From an uncultured Spirochaetaceae bacterium (GTDB lineage Bacteria > Spirochaetota > Spirochaetia > Treponematales > Treponemataceae), in contig CADCBK010000014.1 in the NCBI GenBank assembly GCA_902799665.1, forward strand, positions 64,793 through 128,792: a stretch of DNA of 64,000 bases, in the 5' to 3' direction. The notes below the pieces were generated by a model, which saw only the letters and a list, made by a program, of their open reading frames with translations, was not told the origin of the DNA and did no database searches. The translations under genes were made by a program, and so were the position numbers. Each line of letters opens with the position of its first letter. The stretch's first letter is position 1. Shown piece by piece: positions 52,795-64,000 of the stretch.

Positions 52795-53247
52795 CTAAAA
52801 TTCTTTGTAGTTTTGGTCAAAGCCCTCTTCCAGCCAAAGCGCGACGCTTTCGGAGAGGGCTTGTATTTTTTGAGCGCGGTTCTTTCCTGTAATCGAACAT
52901 TCCCAGACAACGCCGACTCTGTAGCCTTGATCCAAAAGGCTTTTGACTTCTTCTTTGTCGCGCTCCCTATTGCGCTCGATTTTTTTAGTCCAATATTCCG
53001 TGTTGCTTTTTGGAATCCTCACTTTGCCGCAGGAACGGTGGCCGTGCCAAAAACAGCCGTTCACAAAAATCACGGCGTAATAGCGCGGAAAGTAAAGGTC
53101 TGGCTTTCCGGTCAAGCGCTTGTCGTTTTTCCTAAAGCGAAAGCCCAGTTTGTGCAAGTAGGAACGAACCAAAAGCTCTGGCTTGGTGTCGCGGCTTTTT
53201 ATTTGCGACATTACAAAATGCCGCTGTTCTTTTGTGAGCGTGTCCAT
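52795..53247 (-). CDS. vsr: very short patch repair endonuclease
   Basis: A 150-residue Vsr, which nicks T:G mismatches left when 5-methylcytosine deaminates. GKPDLYFPRYYAVIFVNGCFWHGHRSC holds the catalytic aspartate and histidine and zinc ligands, and VRSYLHKLGFRFRKND is typical. It starts 1 nt after the stop of the cytosine methyltransferase gene, the usual partner. Confidence 0.93.
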   Translation of the reverse strand: MDTLTKEQRHFVMSQIKSRDTKPELLVRSYLHKLGFRFRKNDKRLTGKPDLYFPRYYAVIFVNGCFWHGHRSCGKVRIPKSNTEYWTKKIERNRERDKEEVKSLLDQGYRVGVVWECSITGKNRAQKIQALSESVALWLEEGFDQNYKEF

Positions 53248-53248
53248 C

Positions 53249-54268
53249 TTAATTCGCGCTCTTTAGCGCCTTTGCGATTTGAAGCGCGATAAACTGAAGA
53301 ACGTCAACCACGACAGAGTTTCCGAACTGCTTGTAGGCTTGGTTAGGCCTTTTTGAAATTTTGTAGGAATCAGGATAGCCCATCAAGCGGGCGCACTCGC
53401 GCGGATGCAAGCGGCGCGGCTTTCCGTTGACCAAATATCCGCCGGTTTTAGCGAACACTCCGCCGCCGTAAGCGCTCAATGTGACGGCGATTCCTTTTGT
53501 TGAATAGACGCGCTCGCCTTGGCCGCCCTTGTTCACTATCGCAAGCTTGATGGCCTTTGAGCTGTGTTTTTCTTTCTTTTTGGGATTAAAGACCATCGGG
53601 TAGCGCTCGTCGCAAAGCGCGAGGGTCTCGTCTGATTCAGGAAGCAAAAAATCTTCCACGTGGCGCGCCAGCGGAATAGGCTTTGGAAATTCAAAATTGA
53701 TTTCGCATGAAGCGCCGGCCGAAGCGCCTTCCGCTCCGCAAAAACAATCTTTTCTAAAGCAAACCATGTAAACGCGCTCGCGCTTTTGCGGAACGCCGTA
53801 ATCAAGCGCGCTCAAAACTTTCCAATAAAATGCGTAGCCCAAATCTTCCATCGTTTTTTGAACGACTTTAAGCGTTCGGCCGCCGTCGTGGCGCGCGAAG
53901 TTCCGCACGTTTTCCATAAAAACAACTTTTGGCTTTTTTTCCTTTACGATGCGCGCGACGTCAAAAAAAAGCGTTCCGCGGCTGTCTTCAAAGCCGCGCA
54001 TTTTTCCGCTAATCGAAAAGGCCTGGCAAGGAAAGCCGGCGCAACAAATGTCATGGTCTGGAATTGATTTTTCGTCCACTTTGGTTATGTCGCCGTTGGG
54101 GCGCTCGCCAAAGTTTTCTTGGTAAACTTTTTGCGCCTGCTTGTCCCATTCGCTGGAATAAACGCAAGAGGCGCCCAAGGATTCAAGAGCCAGCCTAAAG
54201 CCGCCGAGTCCAGCAAACAAGTCTATGAATGTCATGCCGGAAAGCGGCGAGCCTTGAACTTCTATCAT
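53249..54268 (-). CDS. dcm: DNA (cytosine-5) methyltransferase
   Basis: A 339-residue C5 methyltransferase. Motif I IDLFAGLGGFRLALE, motif IV GFPCQAFSISG with the catalytic cysteine, motif VI MENVRNF, motif VIII KRERVYMVCFRK, and motif X KQFGNSVVVDV. The target site lies in residues 180-260 and cannot be read by eye. No restriction enzyme is adjacent, only vsr, so it is probably a solitary methylase. The ATG is set by a strong promoter 6 nt upstream. Confidence 0.92.
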   Translation of the reverse strand: MIEVQGSPLSGMTFIDLFAGLGGFRLALESLGASCVYSSEWDKQAQKVYQENFGERPNGDITKVDEKSIPDHDICCAGFPCQAFSISGKMRGFEDSRGTLFFDVARIVKEKKPKVVFMENVRNFARHDGGRTLKVVQKTMEDLGYAFYWKVLSALDYGVPQKRERVYMVCFRKDCFCGAEGASAGASCEINFEFPKPIPLARHVEDFLLPESDETLALCDERYPMVFNPKKKEKHSSKAIKLAIVNKGGQGERVYSTKGIAVTLSAYGGGVFAKTGGYLVNGKPRRLHPRECARLMGYPDSYKISKRPNQAYKQFGNSVVVDVLQFIALQIAKALKSAN

Positions 54269-54387: not shown

Positions 54388-54416
54388 GTCATTGTCGGGC
54401 TTGACCCGACAATCTT
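54388..54416. repeat. palindromic element, copy 1, supplying the end of cytX
   Basis: A 29-bp palindrome with arms ATTGTCGGG / CCCGACAAT around TTGA-like centre, beginning GTC and ending CTT. It provides the last seven codons and the TGA of cytX. It matches the second copy inside the same gene with compensating changes in both arms. Confidence 0.75.
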
Positions 54417-55648
54417 CCAGCCGCAAGCGCCAAGACAAAAGTCGCCGCCATCGCGGGAAGCGTACAGCCAAAGGCAAAGTCCAAGCGCATGAAAAGCCTG
54501 TAAATTATAAAGCCCAAAAGCCAAAGGGCGGCGCGTTTTGTGTCAATTTGTTTTTTGGAGGAATCGTTTTTGAGGACAAAAAAGTCGGCGAGCAAAATCG
54601 CGGTCATCGGAGCGAACACGCTTCCAATCAAGTACAAAAAGTCCGTGATGTTGTCCATGTTAAACAAAAGCGCGCCAACCGTTCCCAAGACAGCGACAAT
54701 TATCGCGGCGGCCTTTATGTTGATTTTTGAGTGAACGCTTTGGCTTGAAACGCCGGCTGAATACGCGTCAAGGTAAGTCGTGGTAACTGTGGAAAGAACG
54801 ACAATCACAAGCGCGGCGATTCCCAAACCAGTCTTTAGCATTACGATGTCAATCGAACTTTCGCCCGCCACAAGAGCCGCGCCCATGCCGATTGCGTACA
54901 TCCAAACGCTGACCAAAAAATAAACGACGGCCGCGGCAAGCGAAACTGCGACAGGCCGCTTTGCGTCCTTTGTGTAGTCGCTGATTACGGGAAGCCAAGA
55001 AAGCGGCATCGCGACAGAAAGCTCTATCGCCGCGCCAAACGAAAGCGCCTGGTCCGCCATTCCCTCGCCCGCCGCGCCGGCCGCCATCGCGGCGCCAGAA
55101 GCCGCTCCGCCAAAAAGGCCGCCAAAAATTTTCACGCACAACAAAATCGTAAGGCAAAAAAGAGCGATTGCCGCCGCAAAATTAAGCTTGTCCAGGTTTC
55201 GCACGCCGGCCAAAATCCAAACGACAATCAAAACGCCAATCGCAAGCGCGGCCCACATCGCCCCGTGTGTCATTGCCAAACTCGTCTCTTGTGTCATTGC
55301 CGGGCTCGACCCGGCAATCTTTGCGCCGTTGATGATTGTGTTGGCGCAGAGAGAGCCGTCGTAAATCATAATTCCTGTCCAGCCCAAAAGCTGCGCCGCG
55401 TTCAAAAAGCCAAAAAACTTCGCCCCGAATTTTCCAAACGACAAAGCGGTAGTCTGCATGGCGGCCATTTTTTTCTTGGCGCCAATCACGCCTGTCATAA
55501 ACAAAAGCGCGCAGCCAAGAACGTGTCCGATTACAATCGCCGCCATTCCTTTTGCAAAGCCCAGCGGCGCGAAATAAGTTCCGGTAATAATTTCCGCGAT
55601 GGAAACTCCGGCTCCAAACCAAATCAAAGAACTAGAAAAAACAGTCAT
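54389..55648 (-). CDS. cytX: NCS1-type hydroxymethylpyrimidine transporter
   Basis: A 419-residue permease of the cytosine/purine family with about twelve helices (WFGAGVSIAEIITGTYFAPLGF, ILIVVWILAGVRNLDKLN, LPVISDYTKDAKRP). Its place after thiD in a TPP-riboswitch operon makes it CytX, a predicted HMP importer. Two palindromic elements lie in it: one inserted in frame (IAGSSPAMTQETSLAMTHG, about residues 112-130) in a loop, and one forming the C-terminus (RLSGQARQ). GGAG precedes the ATG. Confidence 0.85.
   Translation of the reverse strand: MTVFSSSLIWFGAGVSIAEIITGTYFAPLGFAKGMAAIVIGHVLGCALLFMTGVIGAKKKMAAMQTTALSFGKFGAKFFGFLNAAQLLGWTGIMIYDGSLCANTIINGAKIAGSSPAMTQETSLAMTHGAMWAALAIGVLIVVWILAGVRNLDKLNFAAAIALFCLTILLCVKIFGGLFGGAASGAAMAAGAAGEGMADQALSFGAAIELSVAMPLSWLPVISDYTKDAKRPVAVSLAAAVVYFLVSVWMYAIGMGAALVAGESSIDIVMLKTGLGIAALVIVVLSTVTTTYLDAYSAGVSSQSVHSKINIKAAAIIVAVLGTVGALLFNMDNITDFLYLIGSVFAPMTAILLADFFVLKNDSSKKQIDTKRAALWLLGFIIYRLFMRLDFAFGCTLPAMAATFVLALAAGRLSGQARQ
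55267..55322. repeat. palindromic element, copy 2, in frame inside cytX
   Basis: A 29-30 bp palindrome (arms ATTGCCGGG / CCCGGCAAT) at 55293-55322 is preceded by a half copy beginning GTGTCATTGCC at 55267. The arms differ from copy 1 by a paired T-to-C/A-to-G change that keeps the hairpin. Confidence 0.75.
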
Positions 55649-55726
55649 ATTAACTCCAAATATAGAAAAATAAAAACCTGTCGAGGCGCCCGCAATTTTA
55701 GTCTTGCCAGCAATCAGCGGCAGCCG

Positions 55727-56533
55727 CTAAAAAACTCCCTCAACATTAAACGCGTGGTTCATCGGGCCGGAACCTTTTCCCAAATCCAGCATGGCGGCGA
55801 GCGCGCCTGTAAGATAGTTTTTGGCCGACTGGACAGACTCGACTAAACTTTTGCCCTTGGCCAAATTGCTGGCAATTGCGCTCGAAAGGGTGCAGCCAGT
55901 TCCGTGCGTGTTGGGGTTGTTGATTCGCTTTCCGTTAACCCAACGCCCCATGCGCTCGCCGCCGCAAATGTTGCCGAAAAGATAATCGTTGGCGTCATTC
56001 AAATTATGGCCACCCTTAAGCAAAACCGCCGCGCCAAACTGACTAAAAATGTTTTGGGCAGCGGCCTCCATGTCGGCCGGGCTGTGGATTGGATTTCCGC
56101 AAAGGACTTCTGCTTCGGGAATGTTTGGCGTTATCACTGTCGCAAGAGGCAAGAGCAAACCTTTAAGAGATTCAATCGCGTCATCGCTAATCAGCTTGGC
56201 GCCGCTTGTGGCCACCATCACCGGGTCAACGACAATGTTCCTAAAATTATATTCCTTGATTGAATCCGCGATTGTTTGAATCAGCGCGGAAGAAGAAACC
56301 ATTCCGACCTTCACCGCGTCCGGAAAAATGTCCGTGGCGACGGCGGCTATTTGCGCCTTTAAAAAGTCCGGCGAGACTTCCATAATGTCTGTTACGCCGG
56401 TCGTGTTCTGGGCGGTCAAGGCGGTGACAGCGCTCATCGCGTAAACGCCGTTGGCTGTCATTGTCTTGATGTCCGCTTGAATGCCGGCGCCTCCGCTGGA
56501 ATCGCTTCCAGCGATCGTTAAAGCAGTTTTCAT
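55727..56533 (-). CDS. thiD: hydroxymethylpyrimidine (phosphate) kinase
   Basis: A 268-residue ThiD that phosphorylates HMP twice for thiamin synthesis. ALTIAGSDSSGGAGIQADIKT is the signature, MEVSPDFLKAQI and VVDPVMVATSGAKL follow, and HGTGCTLSSAIAS contains the catalytic aspartate-position loop. The ATG at 56533 follows AGGAGG; longer starts are rejected. Confidence 0.93.
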   Translation of the reverse strand: MKTALTIAGSDSSGGAGIQADIKTMTANGVYAMSAVTALTAQNTTGVTDIMEVSPDFLKAQIAAVATDIFPDAVKVGMVSSSALIQTIADSIKEYNFRNIVVDPVMVATSGAKLISDDAIESLKGLLLPLATVITPNIPEAEVLCGNPIHSPADMEAAAQNIFSQFGAAVLLKGGHNLNDANDYLFGNICGGERMGRWVNGKRINNPNTHGTGCTLSSAIASNLAKGKSLVESVQSAKNYLTGALAAMLDLGKGSGPMNHAFNVEGVF

Positions 56534-56559
56534 TTTTCCTCCTAAGTTACGGCTGAACG

Positions 56560-56760
56560 CGCGAGCCTTACGCGAGCGCGTTTGTTGCCGCTTATGCGGC
56601 GCTCTAGCATTGTTGTCTTGCAAACAATTGTCGCGCCGCTAAATCTGCTTTATGCCAAGTGGTGCCCCCAAGGCATTTATATTTGTCGCCGCAATCGCAA
56701 CGTTTTTTTTGGTCTTGTTAAAGTTCTCCGCATGCGCGGCGAATTTTAGGCTTGATAAAA
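56560..56760. repeat. intergenic hairpins between thiE and thiD
   Basis: This 240-bp gap in the operon holds several stem-loops, such as GCCGC-TTAT-GCGGC at 56588-56601, and an ACGCGC/GCGCGT pair around CTTACG just before it. No gene is visible. Confidence 0.5.
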
Positions 56761-56776
56761 ATTCCCCGCTGTTAGT

Positions 56777-57517
56777 CTAAAAAACCTCCGCCACTTTTCC
56801 CGCCAATTTTTTTGTCGCCGCGGCGATGTCGTCGTTGGCGAAAATCGCGCTGATGACGCTTACGCCCGCGATTCCGCTCCCCTTTAGCTCGTGGACATTG
56901 CCCGCGCTTATTCCGCCAATCGCGACGACTGGAATTTTCACCGCGCCGCAAATCGCCTTTAGCGTTTCAAACGAAACGCTTTCCGCGTCGGCCTTGCTTC
57001 CGGTTGCGAAAACCGCTCCCACGCCAAGGTAATCGGCTCCCTGCCTTTCGGCCAAAAGCGCTTGCTCAACGGTCTGCGCGCTTACCCCGATAATGCTGTC
57101 AGGCCCTAAAATGCGGCGCGCCTCTAGGCAAGACGCGTCGGATTGGCCAACGTGAACTCCGTCCGCGCCGACTTCCTTTGCAATCATTACGTTGTCGTTC
57201 ACCACAAAGGGAACGCCGCGCTCTGAGCAAAGTTTTTTTAGCGCGCGGGCTTCGTTCAAAAAGGCGGCCTCGTCCAAGTCTTTTTCGCGCAACTGCACAA
57301 AAGTCGCGCCGCCGTCAATCGCTTGCTCCACGCATTCGACCAACGTTCTTCCGTTAAGCCAGTGGCGGTCGGTGACGGCGTAAAGGCGCAGGGCCGCGCG
57401 CATCTTAGGCTTACAACCGTTTATGGTCTCGGCCCGAATCTTAGGCTTGCAACCGTTTGCGGCGCTGGCCGCCCCCGTTTCGGTCTTGCTGCCAGTCTCC
57501 GCTCTATCTGATTTCAT
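56777..57517 (-). CDS. thiE: thiamin-phosphate synthase with repeat-derived N-terminal extension
   Basis: ThiE couples HMP-PP and HET-P to thiamin phosphate. The core starts LRLYAVTDRHWLNGRTL and holds GATFVQLREKDLDEAAF, NDNVMIAKEVGADGVHVGQSD and GVGAVFATGSKADA, all typical, and would be about 205 residues. In front lie about 40 residues with two 12-residue repeats (CKPKIRAETING, CKPKMRAA) from the 36-bp family. The start used is the ATG at 57517, which overlaps thiM by 14 bp; an internal ATG at 57403 could give a normal-length enzyme. Confidence 0.88.
   Translation of the reverse strand: MKSDRAETGSKTETGAASAANGCKPKIRAETINGCKPKMRAALRLYAVTDRHWLNGRTLVECVEQAIDGGATFVQLREKDLDEAAFLNEARALKKLCSERGVPFVVNDNVMIAKEVGADGVHVGQSDASCLEARRILGPDSIIGVSAQTVEQALLAERQGADYLGVGAVFATGSKADAESVSFETLKAICGAVKIPVVAIGGISAGNVHELKGSGIAGVSVISAIFANDDIAAATKKLAGKVAEVF
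57402..57501 (-). repeat. 36-bp repeats in thiE
   Basis: ATCTTAGGCTTACAACCGTTT at 57402-57422 recurs with one change at 57438-57458, exactly 36 bp apart. A worn third unit (GCAAGACCGAAACGGGGGCG on the coding strand) precedes them. Confidence 0.7.
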
Positions 57518-58325
57518 ACTTCGCGCCTTTTTCTAGGTCGTCGCCTGTCATGTTGTACAAGGCGTCGATGATGCGGTTGCGGTAAGTGGAATTGCCGTCA
57601 CCGGCCTGCATTCGTTCCCAAGCAAGCTCGCCGGCCAAGCCCATGGAGCAAACAGAGGCGGCCGCCGCTTCCAAAATATTGTCGGGATTGGCCACGGCAA
57701 AGGCCGCCGTCACCGCGCTAAGCTGGCAGCCGGTTCCGGTGATGCGGCTCATTTCCGCGCGACCGTTTCGTATCACATAACACTTGCCGTCGTCGGCCAC
57801 AAGGTCAATCGCGCCTGTAATCGCGACGACGCAATTGTGGCGCGCGGCGAAATCTTTTGCAAAGGCGACCGACTTTTCCAAATTGCCATCGTTCACGCTG
57901 TCGGCGATGTCCGCGTCAACGCCCTTTGTCGTTCCGCTTCCAAGCGCCAAAGTTTTTATCTCGCTAATGTTTCCGCGGACAACGTCAAAATGGAATTTCT
58001 TCAAAAGCTTTAAGGCGGTGTTGGTTCTAAGCGCGCTGGCTCCCGCTCCGACCGGGTCAAGCAAAAGCTTGTGGCCCAACGCGGCGGCGTTCTTTGCGCT
58101 CGCGAACATCGCCTTGATTGTCCGCTTGTTCAGCGTTCCGATGTTGACGTTAAGGCCGCCGCAGATTTTTGTAATCTCCGCGGCATCGCTCGGTTCGTCG
58201 GCCATGATGGGGCTAGCGCCAATGGCCAACAAAACATTGGCCACGTCGTTTACAGTTACATAGTTTGTGATGTTGTGGATTAGAGGACAAGTCGCGCGGA
58301 CCTTGTCCAAACAAGTTTTGAACAT
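57504..58325 (-). CDS. thiM: hydroxyethylthiazole kinase
   Basis: A 273-residue ThiM that phosphorylates the thiazole alcohol for salvage. PLIHNITNYVTVNDVANVLLAIGASPIMADE is the signature start, LLLDPVGAGAS and RGNISEIKTLA follow, and RITGTGCQLSAVTAAF holds the catalytic cysteine/glycine loop. First gene of thiM-thiE-thiD-cytX. With no thiC or thiG here, the operon is a salvage route for HMP and thiazole. AAGGAG precedes the ATG, just after the riboswitch. Confidence 0.93.
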   Translation of the reverse strand: MFKTCLDKVRATCPLIHNITNYVTVNDVANVLLAIGASPIMADEPSDAAEITKICGGLNVNIGTLNKRTIKAMFASAKNAAALGHKLLLDPVGAGASALRTNTALKLLKKFHFDVVRGNISEIKTLALGSGTTKGVDADIADSVNDGNLEKSVAFAKDFAARHNCVVAITGAIDLVADDGKCYVIRNGRAEMSRITGTGCQLSAVTAAFAVANPDNILEAAAASVCSMGLAGELAWERMQAGDGNSTYRNRIIDALYNMTGDDLEKGAKYEIR

Positions 58326-58340
58326 AATCTTCTCCTTACG

Positions 58341-58412
58341 TTGGAATTACCCAAATCAAGTTCAAAGGTCAAGGGGAACACCCTACTCTCAGCCGGATTT
58401 GTCCAGCTCCCT
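58341..58412 (-). promoter_or_regulatory. TPP riboswitch
   Basis: On the minus strand the leader has the conserved CTGAGA (58387-58392 as TCTCAG), GGGT next to it, ACC..TGAAC..GAT in the second arm, and GGGTAATTCC near the gene. It ends within 15 nt of the thiM ribosome binding site, which fits control of translation start by thiamin pyrophosphate. Confidence 0.93.
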
Positions 58413-58476
58413 TTTAAATTGTCGCCTCATTCTATCACGCGCGATATTTTTGCGCAAGGCCTTGTATTTTGTATAA

Positions 58477-59342: not shown

Positions 59343-59962
59343 GCAAGGTTTCCGCGTCCGTGCAGACGAAGAGCATCCTCTTCGAGCCGGACGGAACGAA
59401 GCAGGGCTTCACGCCGGACGCCGGGAAGTATCTCACGACCGCGTACATCTATCCGTGCCGGATGAAGACGTACACGGGTACGTTCGACTGGGAACAGGGC
59501 GATATCACGGGAGTCACCATGTCCAAGGTGTTTGTCATTCCTGCGAATCCCGTTCTGAGGAATTATCTTCCGACGCAGTACGAACTCACCATTTTCACGG
59601 ACATGACGAAGGAAATCGACGAGGCGAACCCGCAGACGGGGGATCTCGAACCCATCGTCGAACCGTACATCGTCGGCGTGCATCTGCACCGCGACGTCGA
59701 GGGTAACGTAACGTCTGACCTGTCTGATATCAGGCCGTCTATGCTATCCAACGGGATTGAAATACGGCACGTCAGTTCGACCGCAACGGTTTCGCTTTCG
59801 TTTGTGACCACTCCCGTCGCGGGGTATCAGATCTCGGTGGCGTGGAACGGTTCCGTCTATGACCCGATGGATCCGCATTTTGAGCGCGGATGCCGATACG
59901 TTCTGACCGCGTGGGAGTCCGTTCCCACTGACACGCCGCTCGCACAGGGCGACCCGGCATAA
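59342..59962 (+). CDS. phage protein of unknown function, 5' end uncertain
   Basis: At least 200 residues. The frame is open through the junction, so the true start may be lost; a GTG at 59360 is possible but poorly supported. Content is beta-rich with short Ig-like strands near the end (VSLSFVTTPVAGYQISVAWNGSVYD), as in tail, baseplate or head-decoration proteins, but no family is recognised. It ends TAA and is followed by a ribosome binding site (AAGGAGG) for the next gene, so it belongs to the late gene run. Confidence 0.5.
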   Translation, partial: GKVSASVQTKSILFEPDGTKQGFTPDAGKYLTTAYIYPCRMKTYTGTFDWEQGDITGVTMSKVFVIPANPVLRNYLPTQYELTIFTDMTKEIDEANPQTGDLEPIVEPYIVGVHLHRDVEGNVTSDLSDIRPSMLSNGIEIRHVSSTATVSLSFVTTPVAGYQISVAWNGSVYDPMDPHFERGCRYVLTAWESVPTDTPLAQGDPA

Positions 59963-59974
59963 GGAGGTTTCACG

Positions 59975-60208
59975 ATGACATGGGAAATTGTACTGGGGCT
60001 GATCGCCCTCGTCGGATTCATCGCGTCCATCGGCGGCTTCGTGTGGCGGCTTTCCTCGATGATCGCGCGGCTGGAGAAGGCCGTGGAGACGATGACGAAG
60101 GCGGTCGAATCCCTGCGCGTAGACAACGACGCGGAGCACATTCGGCTGAACGAGAAGCTGGAAAATCACGAGACGCGGATCGTGCGGATCGAAACGAAGG
60201 TGGGCTGA
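59975..60208 (+). CDS. small phage membrane protein, XhlA/holin-accessory-like
   Basis: A 77-residue protein: one membrane helix (IVLGLIALVGFIASIGGFVW) at the N-terminus, then a 50-residue coiled coil (MIARLEKAVETMTKAVESL). The layout is inverted compared with haemolysin XhlA, where the coil comes first, but the size and place beside an endolysin suggest a lysis accessory or spanin-like part. AAGGAGG lies 7 nt before the ATG. Ends TGA, 1 nt before the endolysin start. Confidence 0.6.
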   Translation: MTWEIVLGLIALVGFIASIGGFVWRLSSMIARLEKAVETMTKAVESLRVDNDAEHIRLNEKLENHETRIVRIETKVG

Positions 60209-60209
60209 G

Positions 60210-61001
60210 ATGCTGGGGATCGACGTAAGCGTATCCCAGAAGGGGATGCCGTGGAACCGGTACGCGCAGACCGACGTATCCTTCGCCTTCATCCGCGCGT
60301 CGCAGGGGAAAATGCCGTCGTACCAGCGTCCGTTCACCGACTCGCAGTTCGTCAACCACATGCGCGGCGCGGTCGCGCTCGGCGTTCCGTTCGGCGTGTA
60401 CCATCTGCTGACCGCCAGGAACGCGCAGGAGGCCGAGAGCGAGGCGAAATACTTTCTGTCGGTCATTGAGCCGTACCGTGAGGATATCGCCCTGTGGGCC
60501 GTCTGCGACGTCGAGGACGAGGTGTTTCTGCCGAAGGACAAGGCGTCTCTGACGGAGGTCGTGCTCCGCTTCTGCGACGTGGTGCGCGCGGGCGGCTTCC
60601 ATCCGATGATCTACACGAACCCGAACTACCTGACCTACCGGCTTTATTCCAACCGCATCTCCTCCATCCCGCTGTGGCTTGCGTACTGGGGCGTGAGCGA
60701 GGCGGCGGCGAAGCGGTATGATCCGGTGATCTGGCAGCCGGGAAAGAAGAAGATCTTCGGCATCTGGACGGACGTGGACTACGGCTACTTCACGCCGCCG
60801 GACGTAAAGCCGTCGCCGCAAAAACTGAAGGCTGGAGACAGGGTGAAGGTTCTGCGTCCGCTTATATACGGCACGCAGAAGAAATTCACGGCCTACTTCC
60901 CGGAATACGACGTGATCTCCGTATCGGGAGACCGGGTCGTGATCGGGATCGGGCGCGCGGTGACGGCGGCGGTGGACGCGGCGAATCTGGAAAAGGCGTG
61001 A
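60210..61001 (+). CDS. GH25 lysozyme (phage endolysin)
   Basis: A 263-residue muramidase that cuts peptidoglycan glycan chains at lysis. The GH25 start MLGIDVSVSQKGMPWNRY carries the first aspartate, FAFIRASQGK follows, VCDVEDEVF holds the acidic DxE catalytic pair, and MIYTNPNYLTYRL and LWLAYWG complete the barrel. The last 60 residues (AGDRVKVLRPLIYGTQKKFTAYF) look like a small SH3-type wall-binding module. GH25 endolysins are usual in phages of Firmicutes. No TAG codon is present; it ends TGA. Confidence 0.9.
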   Translation: MLGIDVSVSQKGMPWNRYAQTDVSFAFIRASQGKMPSYQRPFTDSQFVNHMRGAVALGVPFGVYHLLTARNAQEAESEAKYFLSVIEPYREDIALWAVCDVEDEVFLPKDKASLTEVVLRFCDVVRAGGFHPMIYTNPNYLTYRLYSNRISSIPLWLAYWGVSEAAAKRYDPVIWQPGKKKIFGIWTDVDYGYFTPPDVKPSPQKLKAGDRVKVLRPLIYGTQKKFTAYFPEYDVISVSGDRVVIGIGRAVTAAVDAANLEKA

Positions 61002-61039: not shown

Positions 61040-61089
61040 CGACATTTCACGCGAAAATCACGGAAAAAGTGCGACATTTCACGCGAAAA
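61040..61089 (+). repeat. direct repeat upstream of the first TAG-containing gene
   Basis: CGACATTTCACGCGAAAA occurs at 61040-61057 and 61072-61089, a 32-bp period, followed in each case by a GGAAAAGTGCG-like string. The second copy supplies the AAAAGGAG ribosome binding site of the next gene. Confidence 0.7.
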
Positions 61090-61100
61090 GGAGCGGAAAA

Positions 61101-61328
61101 GTGCGGTTTCTGAAAAAACTGCTCGTGTAGGTATACGTGTACATGGGCGTCATCGGGTTTGCCGCGTTCATCGCGTGGGCGGCAACGGGCGAGGAGCCGG
61201 TTGCTCTTCTTGCCGGGGTATTCGGCGCGGCGGGGGTCGAGTCGATCATCGCGGGCATCATGCGGATCCACGAAATCGCGGCTGAGGAAAGAGCGCGGCG
61301 AGAGGAGAGAGAACTCCCGCCCCACTGA
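61101..61328 (+). CDS. small phage membrane protein with an in-frame TAG (recoded)
   Basis: A 75-residue protein if TAG is read as an amino acid. The GTG start at 61101 follows AAAAGGAG. Codon 10 is TAG (61128-61130), after RFLKKLLV, and the frame goes on as VYVYMGVIGFAAFIAWAATG, two hydrophobic segments, and a charged end (AEERARREERELPPH). The basic-then-hydrophobic start reads across the TAG as one membrane segment. Starting after the TAG (GTG 61137 or ATG 61143) has no ribosome binding site. It ends TGA. It sits just before the CTA-anticodon tRNA and may be a holin-like protein. Confidence 0.65.
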
Positions 61329-61333
61329 ATCGC

Positions 61334-61351
61334 GGCGGGGACTTCCCCGCC
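61334..61351 (+). promoter_or_regulatory. hairpin just upstream of the suppressor tRNA
   Basis: GGCGGGG-ACTT-CCCCGCC, seven base pairs. It repeats the first eight bases of the tRNA (GGGGACTT) six bases before the tRNA begins. No T-run follows, so a processing or folding role is more likely than termination. Confidence 0.5.
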
Positions 61352-61356
61352 CATAC

Positions 61357-61460
61357 GGGGACTTGCCGGAGTGCTTGAACGGAGCCGTCTCTAAAACGGA
61401 TTAAGAGGAAACCACTGGCAGAGGTTCCTCACGCGGGTTGGAATCCCGCAGTCCCCGCCA
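61357..61460 (+). tRNA. amber suppressor tRNA (anticodon CTA), serine-like
   Basis: A 104-nt gene including CCA. Acceptor GGGGACT pairs perfectly with AGTCCCC; discriminator G, then encoded CCA at 61458-61460. D-stem CCG/CGG with loop GAGTGCTTGAA. Anticodon stem GCCGT/ACGGA (outer G-A mismatch) with loop CTCTAAA, so the anticodon is CTA (61391-61393) and reads UAG. A 32-nt variable arm forms an 8-bp stem GAGGAA(A)CC/GGTTCCTC. T-stem GCGGG/CCCGC with loop TTGGAAT. The long variable arm and G73 point to seryl-tRNA synthetase. D-loop position 19 is C and T-loop position 56 is G, the reverse of the normal G19-C56 pair. Confidence 0.9.
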
Positions 61461-61491
61461 GATTTTCAAAAAATCAAAAAGGAGAACCCCT

Positions 61492-61788
61492 ATGAACTGG
61501 ATTGAACTTTGCGTCAAGATCCTGTTCCTCATTCTCACGGCGGTCGTCAGCGCATACGTCGTTCCGTGGCTGAAGGAAAAGAAGCTGTACGACACGGTCT
61601 ACCGCATGGTGCAGGCCGCGGAGAAGTGGAACCGGACGCACGAAATCGACAAGAAGCAGTGGGTGATCGGTCTGCTGGAAGCCAGAGGGATCACCGTCAA
61701 CGCCTATGTGGACGCGCTGATTGAAGCGTGTGTGGAGGAACTGGATATCCGGGTCGGCACCGCGCTGACCTACGAAGAGGAGGAATAA
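61492..61788 (+). CDS. LLH-family phage holin
   Basis: A 98-residue protein with one N-terminal membrane helix (LCVKILFLILTAVVSAYVVPWL) followed by the amphipathic segment LYDTVYRMVQAAEKWN and ARGITVNAYVDALIEACVEEL, the pattern of LLH (phage_holin_6) holins found next to endolysins. The ATG at 61492 follows AAAAAGGAG. Ends TAA, 1 nt before the next gene. No TAG codon. Confidence 0.8.
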   Translation: MNWIELCVKILFLILTAVVSAYVVPWLKEKKLYDTVYRMVQAAEKWNRTHEIDKKQWVIGLLEARGITVNAYVDALIEACVEELDIRVGTALTYEEEE

Positions 61789-61789
61789 T

Positions 61790-64000
61790 ATGCCCACGAG
61801 CGCAGAAGCATACGATCAGTACAGGAAGCTGGGCCAGCAGTACGCGGACGCCCTGAACGCGGCGTCGCAGAACGGATGGGTGGTTTCCTCAAACGGCGGA
61901 TTCCGCACGTAGAACGGAACCTACGTCCGCGACACCTCGCGGGATTATCTCGCCTCGCTGACGGGCGATCCGAGAACCGGATTCTACAACGGGACGCTCT
62001 ACACGATGGGCGACACGTCGAACGTATCCGACGCGGTGAAGGTGACGGACGCGGACGTCCGCGCGGCGGCTCCGCAGCTCGCGGCGGCTGCCGAGCAGGC
62101 GCAGAAAATCAAGAGCGGCGCGACCCCTGCCGCCAACCCGACGGGCGCGGCGGTCAATTTCGGTTCGTCCACCGGCGCGCAGACCGGACGCGAGATGAAC
62201 GGCGCGGCTGACGCCGCCAAGGCGGTATCTTCCTCCGCCGGACTCTCCGCGGCGGTGCTGAACTCGCTGAAAAGCCCCGGCGGTCTCACGGCGCAGGAAA
62301 ACCCCGCCAAAACCGGCGCGCAGAGCGGCGGGAATATGTCCACGCTCCGGTCTCTGTATCAGGATTACTTCAACAGCCCGGAGTACCGCGGCGCGGCATC
62401 CGGCGCAGCTAACACGCCGTATTCCCCGGTCGGCGCGGTTACCGGCAGCGCGAACGCCCCGACGGTGAGCGGCAACGCGAACGCGGCGTCCGCCAAGACG
62501 GCGAATCCGACGAGCGGCAACGCGAACGCGGCGAACGGCACGGTGATCGGCAACGCGAACGCGGCCTATCCGAACGGCTATCCGAACGGCTATCAGGGCG
62601 GGTACGGAAGCTATTCCACCACCGGCGCGGGCGCGACGCCTACGGACGTCAACTACAACAATCAGATTTCAAAGACAATTGCCGAACTGGAAACGCTGTA
62701 CCGGGATCTGTACGGTCGGCAGAGGGACGGCGACTATACAAGGACGCCGTATTACCAGACGATCATGGATCAGTACGGCATCCGCGGAGACAACGCGGCA
62801 AACGCCGAATATGCCTCGGCTGCGGCGGCGAACGGCGGCAATCTCGATTCCTACGCGGCGGCGAACGCGCGGCGTCAGCAGCTGGCGTACCGAAACGCGG
62901 CGCAGACGGCGGCTCTGAATGCCTACAACGCGGAGATCGGGAACATGCTCCAGACGCTCCAGTCGCTCGGCGTGAACGTAAATGACCTTTACGGCACGTG
63001 GTCGGGCGATCTGGCTTCCCAGCGTTCCGGAGCGAACGCGGCCTACGGGTACGACACGCAGCGGTATCTCTCGGACAACGACTATCGCGCGGCTCTCGCC
63101 GGGTACGACCGCGACCGGTATCTGTCGAACAACGATCTGACCGGGACGATCTACAAATCCAACACGGATCGGTACAAATCGGACAACGAGCTTCTTTCCG
63201 ACCGGTATCTCTCGGACAACGATCTGACCGGAAAGATGTACGGGTACGACACGAACTACGACATTGCCGCGCTGCAGGACGCGACGAACCGCTACGGGAT
63301 CGACGTCAACTATCTCACGTCGGTTCTCGGCTACAACACGCAGGCGGCTATCGCGCAGATGGACGCGGATGCGCAGATGCGCGTGGCGCAGTATCAGAAT
63401 CTGCTCGGCATGTATCAGGCGGACATTCAGCGCGAAATCGCGCAGGGCAACAACGCCTCCCAGGAGCGGATCAACGCGGCGACGCTGGCGTACAACCAGA
63501 CGAGGGACGCGCTGAACGACGAGCTGCAGCGGTATCTCGGCGGTCTGGACTATCGGGCGAGCATCGCAAACGCGAAAGCGAGCGTGGCCGCGGCGAAGGC
63601 GAAGGCAAATGCGGAAAATGCGGAACGTCAGGCGTACATCGATTATCTGACCGGAAACGGCGGCACGAACGGCGGCACGATTCCCGGAACCGATGGAACC
63701 GGCGATGGAACCGGCGATGGAACCGGAGACGGAACCGGCGCGCCGCATGTAACGCCGCAAGCCCCGACCAGTTACGGTGTTGACCGCGTCGGACTTCAGC
63801 CGTATGTGGACGATCTGTACAGAATCCGCATGCAGTCCACGCTGGGAACCCAGCAGGGAGATTACCAGAACTATATCAACGCTCTCCGCAAATACGGACT
63901 CACTGAAAACGACATCGCGTATGTCGAAGACGCCGTGACGGATCTCGTGCGAAGAGACCTCGCGAGCGGAGACGCGAAGTTTGAAGGAACCTCGCCGAAC
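61790..64000 (+). CDS. large phage structural-type protein with in-frame TAG, runs off the window
   Basis: 737 codons without a TAA or TGA to the window edge, after AGGAGG placed 5 nt before the ATG. Codon 41 is TAG (61910-61912), between SSNGGFRT and NGTYVRDTSRDY, with clear protein-like sequence on both sides. The protein is A, G, N and Y rich. Parts: an Ala/Gly-rich region with repeated GNANAA units (62450-62570), a helical region, a block of 'RYLSDND' repeats (63060-63240), a coiled-coil-like region with MDADAQMRVAQYQNLLGMYQ, and a GTGDGTGDG linker near 63690. No family is recognised; a virion or tail-tube-inner protein is likely. Confidence 0.65.
62456..62590 (+). repeat. coding repeats in the large phage protein
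   Basis: The string GGCAACGCGAACGCGGC recurs at short intervals (around 62472, 62517 and 62550), giving GNANAA units, and CCGAACGGCTAT occurs twice in tandem (PNGYPNGY). Confidence 0.6.

Follow-up and report, generated by a model that had tools for sequence, protein, structure and literature searches.

We examined a 64,000-nucleotide stretch of contig CADCBK010000014.1 (hereafter the window), assembled from an uncultured Spirochaetaceae bacterium, whose last 4.6 kb is phage DNA and whose end coincides with the contig end. In this phage segment two genes carry one in-frame TAG codon each, and a tRNA gene with a CTA anticodon lies between them. We consider it likely that the segment is the lysis-gene end of a phage that reads TAG as serine through its own predicted tRNA, and that in selected genes one TAG close to the 5' end would act as a lock. 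The parts of this reading differ in strength. Sequence comparison makes it very probable that TAG is read as serine by the predicted tRNA; that the codons act as translational locks we infer with a confidence barely on the positive side.

Both TAG codons reported in the initial annotation (beginning at 61128 and 61910) are present, one in each of two genes with ribosome binding sites, and the larger frame does stay open from its TAG (61910-61912) to the window end. The clade also includes three IMG/VR contigs: L002 (12,741 bases), L005 (6,772 bases) and L006 (10,483 bases). L002 is 93% identical to the window across 2.8 kb and 94% across another 1.1 kb. The tRNA is retained in it, and so are both TAGs, at codon 10 of the small membrane gene and in the large gene, whose complete homologue there (754 aa, L002 9159-11423) has it at codon 43; since both TAGs recur at homologous codons, their presence is more than chance. 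The third TAG of L002 is codon 33 of its capsid gene. At the same capsid position L005 also shows TAG (its own codon 32), with another at portal codon 14. L006 has TAG at codon 14 of both portal and capsid, and its capsid has a normal serine codon 20 codons further on, at the equivalent of serine 33.

Decoding of TAG and the candidate tRNA

A search with the L002 capsid gave 1203 homologues, and columns were counted on 120 of these. At the TAG shared by L002 and L005, the 120 matches listed had serine in 110 cases, threonine in 3 and a gap in 7. A second count on DNA loci, from which ten window-derived or duplicate loci had been excluded beforehand, gave 34 serines, 3 aspartates, 3 asparagines and 2 stops among 42 matches, the two stops being L002 and L005 by design. 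Because this column and a serU-like tRNA both indicate serine, the original suggestion of serine as the probable residue has gained support. Glutamine was considered as the residue at TAG and rejected, with no Q among the 113 residues of the capsid column.

That TAG is a sense codon in this phage is supported by the relatives, whose capsid and portal genes hold internal TAGs. Ordinary termination at TAG in the remaining phage genes had been named as a finding that would speak against recoding; it was seen in none of 37 complete curated genes (0/37), and all five phage genes with a stop in the window end in TAA or TGA, as had been noted. The curated set comprises 41 plus-strand genes (5 in the window, 15 in L002, 8 in L005 and 13 in L006) and excludes the gene truncated by the join, which starts at 59386, and any L006 gene on the minus strand. 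For five entries, the L005 and L006 capsids (one codon off) among them, the set start does not fall on a start codon; the codon numbers quoted in this text come from the capsid comparison.

The tRNA is identical to E. coli serU, tRNA-Ser(CGA), at 67/89 aligned positions, compared with 55/88 for serT and 52/85 for leuX. Pairing is complete in the acceptor stem (7/7) and T-stem (5/5) and reaches 4/5 in the anticodon stem; the anticodon loop is CTCTAAA and the D arm is of the Ser type. Relative to serU, and in the usual numbering of tRNA positions (19, 56 and 73), the D-loop G19 has become C and the T-loop C56 has become G. Both sides of 19-56 have thus changed, from G-C to C-G, so this tertiary contact is kept. 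A class II tRNA-Ser body, G73 and a CUA anticodon, the features of the supD type, are all present. E. coli supD (su1+), which we take to be the CUA form of serU, has the same kind of body, the same anticodon and the same G73, whereas the tRNA described here is a natural phage gene with a longer variable arm, C19-G56 for G19-C56, and a location in a lysis cassette. The description of this tRNA as well folded is not supported by folding energy (z -0.58; 53 of 200 shuffles were equally stable); the case for the tRNA comes from pairing and homology.

A tRNA with a CUA anticodon is present in the window and in L002, the two contigs that cover the lysis cassette. The two copies differ at 3/104 nucleotides, all within the variable-arm loop; since the surrounding DNA is also very similar, this difference alone shows little constraint. 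A tRNA pattern scan gave five matches, among which only that of L002 resembles a tRNA, and a short DNA search found no close host tRNA parent (best non-self E 0.013). Directly upstream of the tRNA gene, at 61334-61350, there is a GC hairpin, GGCGGGGACTTCCCCGCC, with identical letters in L002. Its first arm is complementary at 10/10 positions to the 3' acceptor strand of the tRNA (61450-61459), so the tRNA precursor could fold in two ways.

Where the TAG codons lie

Nine of the 41 curated genes contain one TAG each, all at codons 10-43: two small membrane genes, two large genes, three capsids and two portals. Every copy of these four families in the four contigs (9/9) carries its TAG, and the other genes carry none (0/32). 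For the L005 and L006 capsids and the large gene of the window, which are cut at the 3' end, "one TAG" refers to the sequenced part. The nine TAGs stand among 10,205 codons, in which serine is otherwise written 599 times by TCN or AGY. Codons one step from TAG fall within the first 44 codons in 16.5% of cases, and the chance that five independent sites would all do so is 1.2e-4 overall and 4.9e-5 within the same genes, with the cut at 44 and the grouping of the nine TAGs into five sites chosen after the data had been seen. A purine directly follows all nine TAGs, a context that favours suppression of UAG; five sites are too few for a test.

TAG is the stop codon of 34 among 230 open reading frames (ORFs) called mechanically in the 14 related loci L007-L020. 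Six of these loci were measured and have a G+C content of 0.45-0.55, against 0.59-0.61 for the compared contigs, so composition may explain part of the difference in TAG stops. The first 1000 bases of L006 (1-1000) hold minus-strand ORFs upstream of the terminase genes, one of them HNH-like, and two of these are likely genes without TAG.

In the relatives, the portal gene is followed by a putative scaffold gene and then by the capsid gene. The L006 portal matches PF16510, a P22-like portal family (85.4 bits against a cut-off of 26.1); the window itself does not reach the portal. The capsid has no Pfam family at E 0.01 and is a major head protein by PHROG. The terminase was likewise named by a PHROG match, and the scaffold is putative, placed by position only, with no family match. 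A profile search with the large gene recovered only L002, and no homologue of the small TAG gene was found beyond L002 in the loci compared. The product of the latter, a protein of 75 aa, is holin-like by position and content only, with no family match in PHROG or Pfam searches.

In the large gene and the capsid, the stretch before the TAG appears to be translated as part of the protein. In the large gene, the proportion of synonymous differences (pS) upstream of the TAG is 0.55 and that of nonsynonymous differences (pN) is 0.17; the capsid gives 0.55/0.19 between L002 and L005 and 0.60/0.30 against L006. As pS exceeds pN in both genes, their leaders have been selected as protein. The portal leader (12 codons, 0.40/0.30) and the small-gene leader (no change) leave this test powerless. 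The annotated starts have ribosome sites ahead of them, a weak one in the case of the L006 portal.

Gene calls in protein databases, compared in the best 32 rows per family, show a matching pattern. All five capsids at 78% identity or more are N-terminally shortened, with starts at residues 15, 21, 76, 90 and 90, as are all four portals at 74% or more (starts at 23-61). For the large gene, 5/6 calls at 63% or more begin with the first ATG past the TAG, at residue 75; the remaining row, P0309, is a short unrelated match and was set aside. Homologues starting after the TAG had been proposed as evidence against readthrough. Such proteins do exist, but in the closest relatives, in which they resemble gene-caller truncations. 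Among more distant rows of the best 32, 11 capsids and 21 portals start near residue 1, one of these portals being extended; the distant large-gene rows are too divergent to judge. Where capsid and portal clusters could be paired by an equal longest contig, they agree in 6/6 compared pairs: both are shortened for lengths 55,227, 14,682, 28,295 and 55,339 and both are full for 55,291 and 6,140. Such pairing takes equal length as a proxy for one and the same contig, and the shortened gene calls, known from protein clusters, are indirect evidence.

A translational lock weighed against other explanations

In the mechanism we propose, the host seryl-tRNA synthetase, an enzyme that does not require the anticodon, would charge the predicted phage tRNA. 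Until that tRNA had accumulated, host RF1 would stop synthesis of the portal, capsid, small membrane and large proteins once 9-42 residues had been made. As the tRNA gene sits in the lysis cassette, immediately behind a locked gene, late transcription would make the key. The locked proteins would then appear later than the unlocked terminase, putative scaffold, endolysin and second holin, whose genes in the same contigs provide a natural contrast. The outcome would be that coat and portal are kept from assembling ahead of the scaffold and that the small membrane protein is delayed. The idea that TAG may time late membrane and structural proteins, already raised in the initial annotation, fits the choice of genes and the 5' position of the codons; the timing itself is inferred. 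About as likely as not is a more specific form, in which selection retains exactly one amber codon, whatever residue it replaces, among the first ~45 codons of each gene in a fixed late set (portal, capsid, small membrane and large gene), with the serine tRNA of the lysis cassette as the key.

Several observations weigh against serine decoding or against the lock. ARAGORN, a tRNA finder of the kind suggested earlier as a check, does not call a tRNA at 61357-61460, and the only Rfam match in the region is to tRNA-Sec, at 26.9 bits and below gathering; serU, serT and leuX, run as controls, score 57 to 59 bits with the Rfam tRNA model. From its sequence, we regard the predicted phage tRNA as a divergent serine tRNA that these tools overlook. 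It is visible in only 2/4 contigs, as L005 and L006 stop short of the cassette. Outside the L002/L005 capsid site, homologues do not point to serine, and glutamine is favoured at no site. The column of the L006 capsid TAG (codon 14) has 79 E, 18 S, 12 T, 1 Q and 10 gaps, with T in L002 and L005; the portal column is variable (K 20, R 17, S 4 and Q 4 of 104 with a residue); and the large-gene column has I 22, V 15, L 6, F 5, T 2, S 2, Y 1 and 16 gaps, in an alignment too divergent around the TAG to trust. Among capsids at 60-64% identity, 11/15 have a normal start and 4/15 are shortened, as is one more at 58%; portals at 56-62% are shortened in 3/7 cases and normal in 4/7. These mixed starts indicate that the trait is confined to a small clade. 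Early genes, which bear on any restriction to late genes, are sampled only in part of L006, the four contigs covering mostly late regions plus a small part of the rest. Finally, ribosome sites alone would allow a restart in some genes: ahead of the first GTG past the TAG stands AAGGA in the capsids of L005 and L006, and GGAG in the portal of L006.

The strongest competitor to a lock is a plain, weakly used reassignment, in which TAG is a rare serine codon of a GC-rich phage, without regulation, and reflects drift or incipient recoding after gain of the tRNA. TAG does make up only 9/608 serine-coding codons, and PMC7886860, in its available part, describes a crAss-like phage whose recoding is incipient, following the gain of a tRNA. 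However, all nine TAGs fall at codons 10-43, one per gene and in the same four families in every copy, and the single TAG of the capsid stands at two different positions among relatives. We find this explanation possible but doubtful.

Termination followed by reinitiation, giving dual products, is improbable. It would apply at least to the small membrane gene, where a 9-aa leader and an internal start could yield short and long forms comparable to holin and antiholin. The L002 small gene has a GTG 1 codon and an ATG 5 codons past the TAG, an internal GTG ORF begins at 61137 in the window, and the AAGGA of the L005 and L006 capsids and the weak GGAG of the L006 portal also favour it. In portal, capsid and large gene, however, 32 to 177 codons separate the TAG from the next ATG and 8 to 57 from any next start codon; in L002, the capsid and the large gene lack a ribosome-site-like sequence ahead of that start; and homologues conserve the capsid as one protein on both sides of the TAG.

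It is very unlikely that the suppressor tRNA is aimed at the host, causing readthrough of host stops as an anti-defence measure with the phage TAGs as tolerated by-products: such a role is proposed for crAss-like phages in the accessible portions of PMC7886860 and PMC12386605, but it leaves the 5' clustering and the gene choice of the TAGs unexplained. Sequencing error, pseudogenes or a degraded prophage are scarcely credible and largely refuted by the relatives, since the TAGs recur at homologous codons in separate contigs of 77-93% identity and the capsid, portal and large gene are under purifying selection downstream of the TAG, even though the contig is probably chimeric.

Setting of the phage segment and relation to known phages

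The phage segment is joined abruptly to the chromosome (Table 1). A chromosome match of the same genus, at 96%, ends at 59358 and the phage match to L002 begins at 59386. The join falls within a chromosomal gene, of which 270 residues are present here against open frames of 323-350 aa in homologues; in 15/15 matching relatives the match begins at residue 26-37 of the window version, and their frames are longer. It also falls within a phage gene. The contig is probably a chimera of chromosome and of a phage with relatives in Clostridia genomes, although it may instead record a genuine recombination. The initial annotation had contrasted the phage with chromosomal genes ending in TAG. Such genes occur (16 of 47 mechanically selected ORFs of at least 200 aa), but because of the abrupt join their stops are uninformative on the host of the phage.

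Table 1. Features of the phage segment and its junction with the chromosome (window positions).
Feature	Position	Strand	Basis or remarks
Abrupt chromosome/phage join, probable chimera	59359..59385	.	End and start of the two matches; gene lengths
Phage gene, 3' part, interrupted by join, stop TAA	59386..59962	+	Match to L002 (counterpart of L002 6420-7331)
Small membrane protein, 77 aa, stop TGA, without TAG	59975..60208	+	Weak spanin-like PHROG matches, E 6e-6 and weaker
GH25 endolysin, stop TGA, without TAG	60210..61001	+	PF01183 E 6e-26; PHROG endolysin
Tandem 32-nt direct repeat, 84% alike	61040..61103	+	Runs into start codon of small TAG gene
Small membrane protein, 75 aa, GTG start, one TAG read through at codon 10	61101..61328	+	AAGGAG upstream
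In-frame TAG, codon 10 of small membrane gene	61128..61130	+	
Predicted tRNA-Ser(CUA), 104 nt, encoded CCA, G73, long variable arm	61357..61460	+	serU-like
Anticodon CTA, reads UAG	61391..61393	+	
Holin, 98 aa, stop TAA, without TAG	61492..61788	+	phrog_6918 holin E 1e-13
Large gene, ATG start at 61790, one TAG read through at codon 41, open at contig end	61790..64000	+	GAGGAGGA upstream
In-frame TAG, codon 41 of large gene	61910..61912	+	

A sigma-70 scan found no promoter-like site in the region of the 32-nt repeats. On the chromosome side, a thiamine cluster occupies 54389-58423, with a thiamine pyrophosphate (TPP) riboswitch at 58316-58423 on the minus strand; its ORFs are presumably thiD-, thiE- and thiM-like, with a permease. 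At 52795-54268, also on the minus strand, a gene pair resembles a Vsr-type endonuclease and a C5 cytosine methyltransferase, as read from ORF translations.

Relatives of the phage were sought with a capsid profile, which recovered 7/7 known carriers as a positive control. In GTDB genomes it hit 14 loci, each with a title of Clostridia, Clostridiales or Oscillospiraceae. The profile was positive in 25/395 genomes of one Clostridia family (including the seven known carriers), 4/394 in the order (one known) and 25/391 in the class (one known). No in-frame TAG was present at any of the 59 places listed from the family, order and class searches, and the single flagged TGA among them is a gene's own stop at the match end. 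The chromosome of the window was considered as the phage host and rejected, as the profile hit 0/97 genomes (its own assembly and kin).

Recoded gut phages provide the closest comparison. The available text of PMC7886860, PMC9523058, PMC10607447, PMC12386605 and PMC13037316 describes suppressor tRNAs, TAG read as glutamine and a bias towards late genes, with PMC13037316 reporting jumbo phages that show no preference for protein type; PMC8629427, in its available part, treats codon reassignment as a general topic. The regulatory hypothesis comes from Borges et al. 2022, as it is cited in the consulted parts of papers on recoded phages. Going by those parts, the present phage resembles the recoded phages (crAss-like phages, phAss-1 and some jumbo phages, with genetic code 15) in having in-frame TAGs in conserved genes, a phage tRNA with a CTA anticodon and, within the mostly late regions covered, TAGs in likely late genes. 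The TAGs do lie in intact conserved genes, capsid and portal being widely conserved and the small membrane and large gene being conserved in L002. The code 15 phages, as described there, read TAG as glutamine, whereas here it is very probably serine, with one TAG per gene near the 5' end and nine in four contigs. By the same accounts TAG occurs in 41 ORFs of phAss-1, and a 10% gain in coding density is the sign by which one jumbo-phage survey recognises recoding. The code 15 features of Q at the TAG site, many TAGs and a large density gain were not seen in the capsid column or in our genes, which have at most one TAG each.

With short-tailed phages of the P22 type, the phage shares the P22_portal family match and the order of portal, putative scaffold and capsid. 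It differs from them in a capsid without a Pfam match, and the capsids of annotated phages are at most 27% identical (11 INPHARED records with distant capsids). The phage differs from known work in the amino acid, in the single 5' TAG per gene, in the shifting capsid position and in the near-zero use of TAG elsewhere. A literature search of titles and abstract openings found no report of a serine reading of TAG in phages, and a prior mention in Borges 2022 or Ivanova 2014 is possible.

Whether recoded stops serve to delay late genes is difficult to test in phages whose genes contain many of them. One TAG per locked gene, unlocked neighbours as controls and a single tRNA would make the idea directly testable. 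Such phages, with few TAGs read as serine rather than glutamine and a tRNA that escapes ARAGORN, would probably be overlooked by screens based on coding density.

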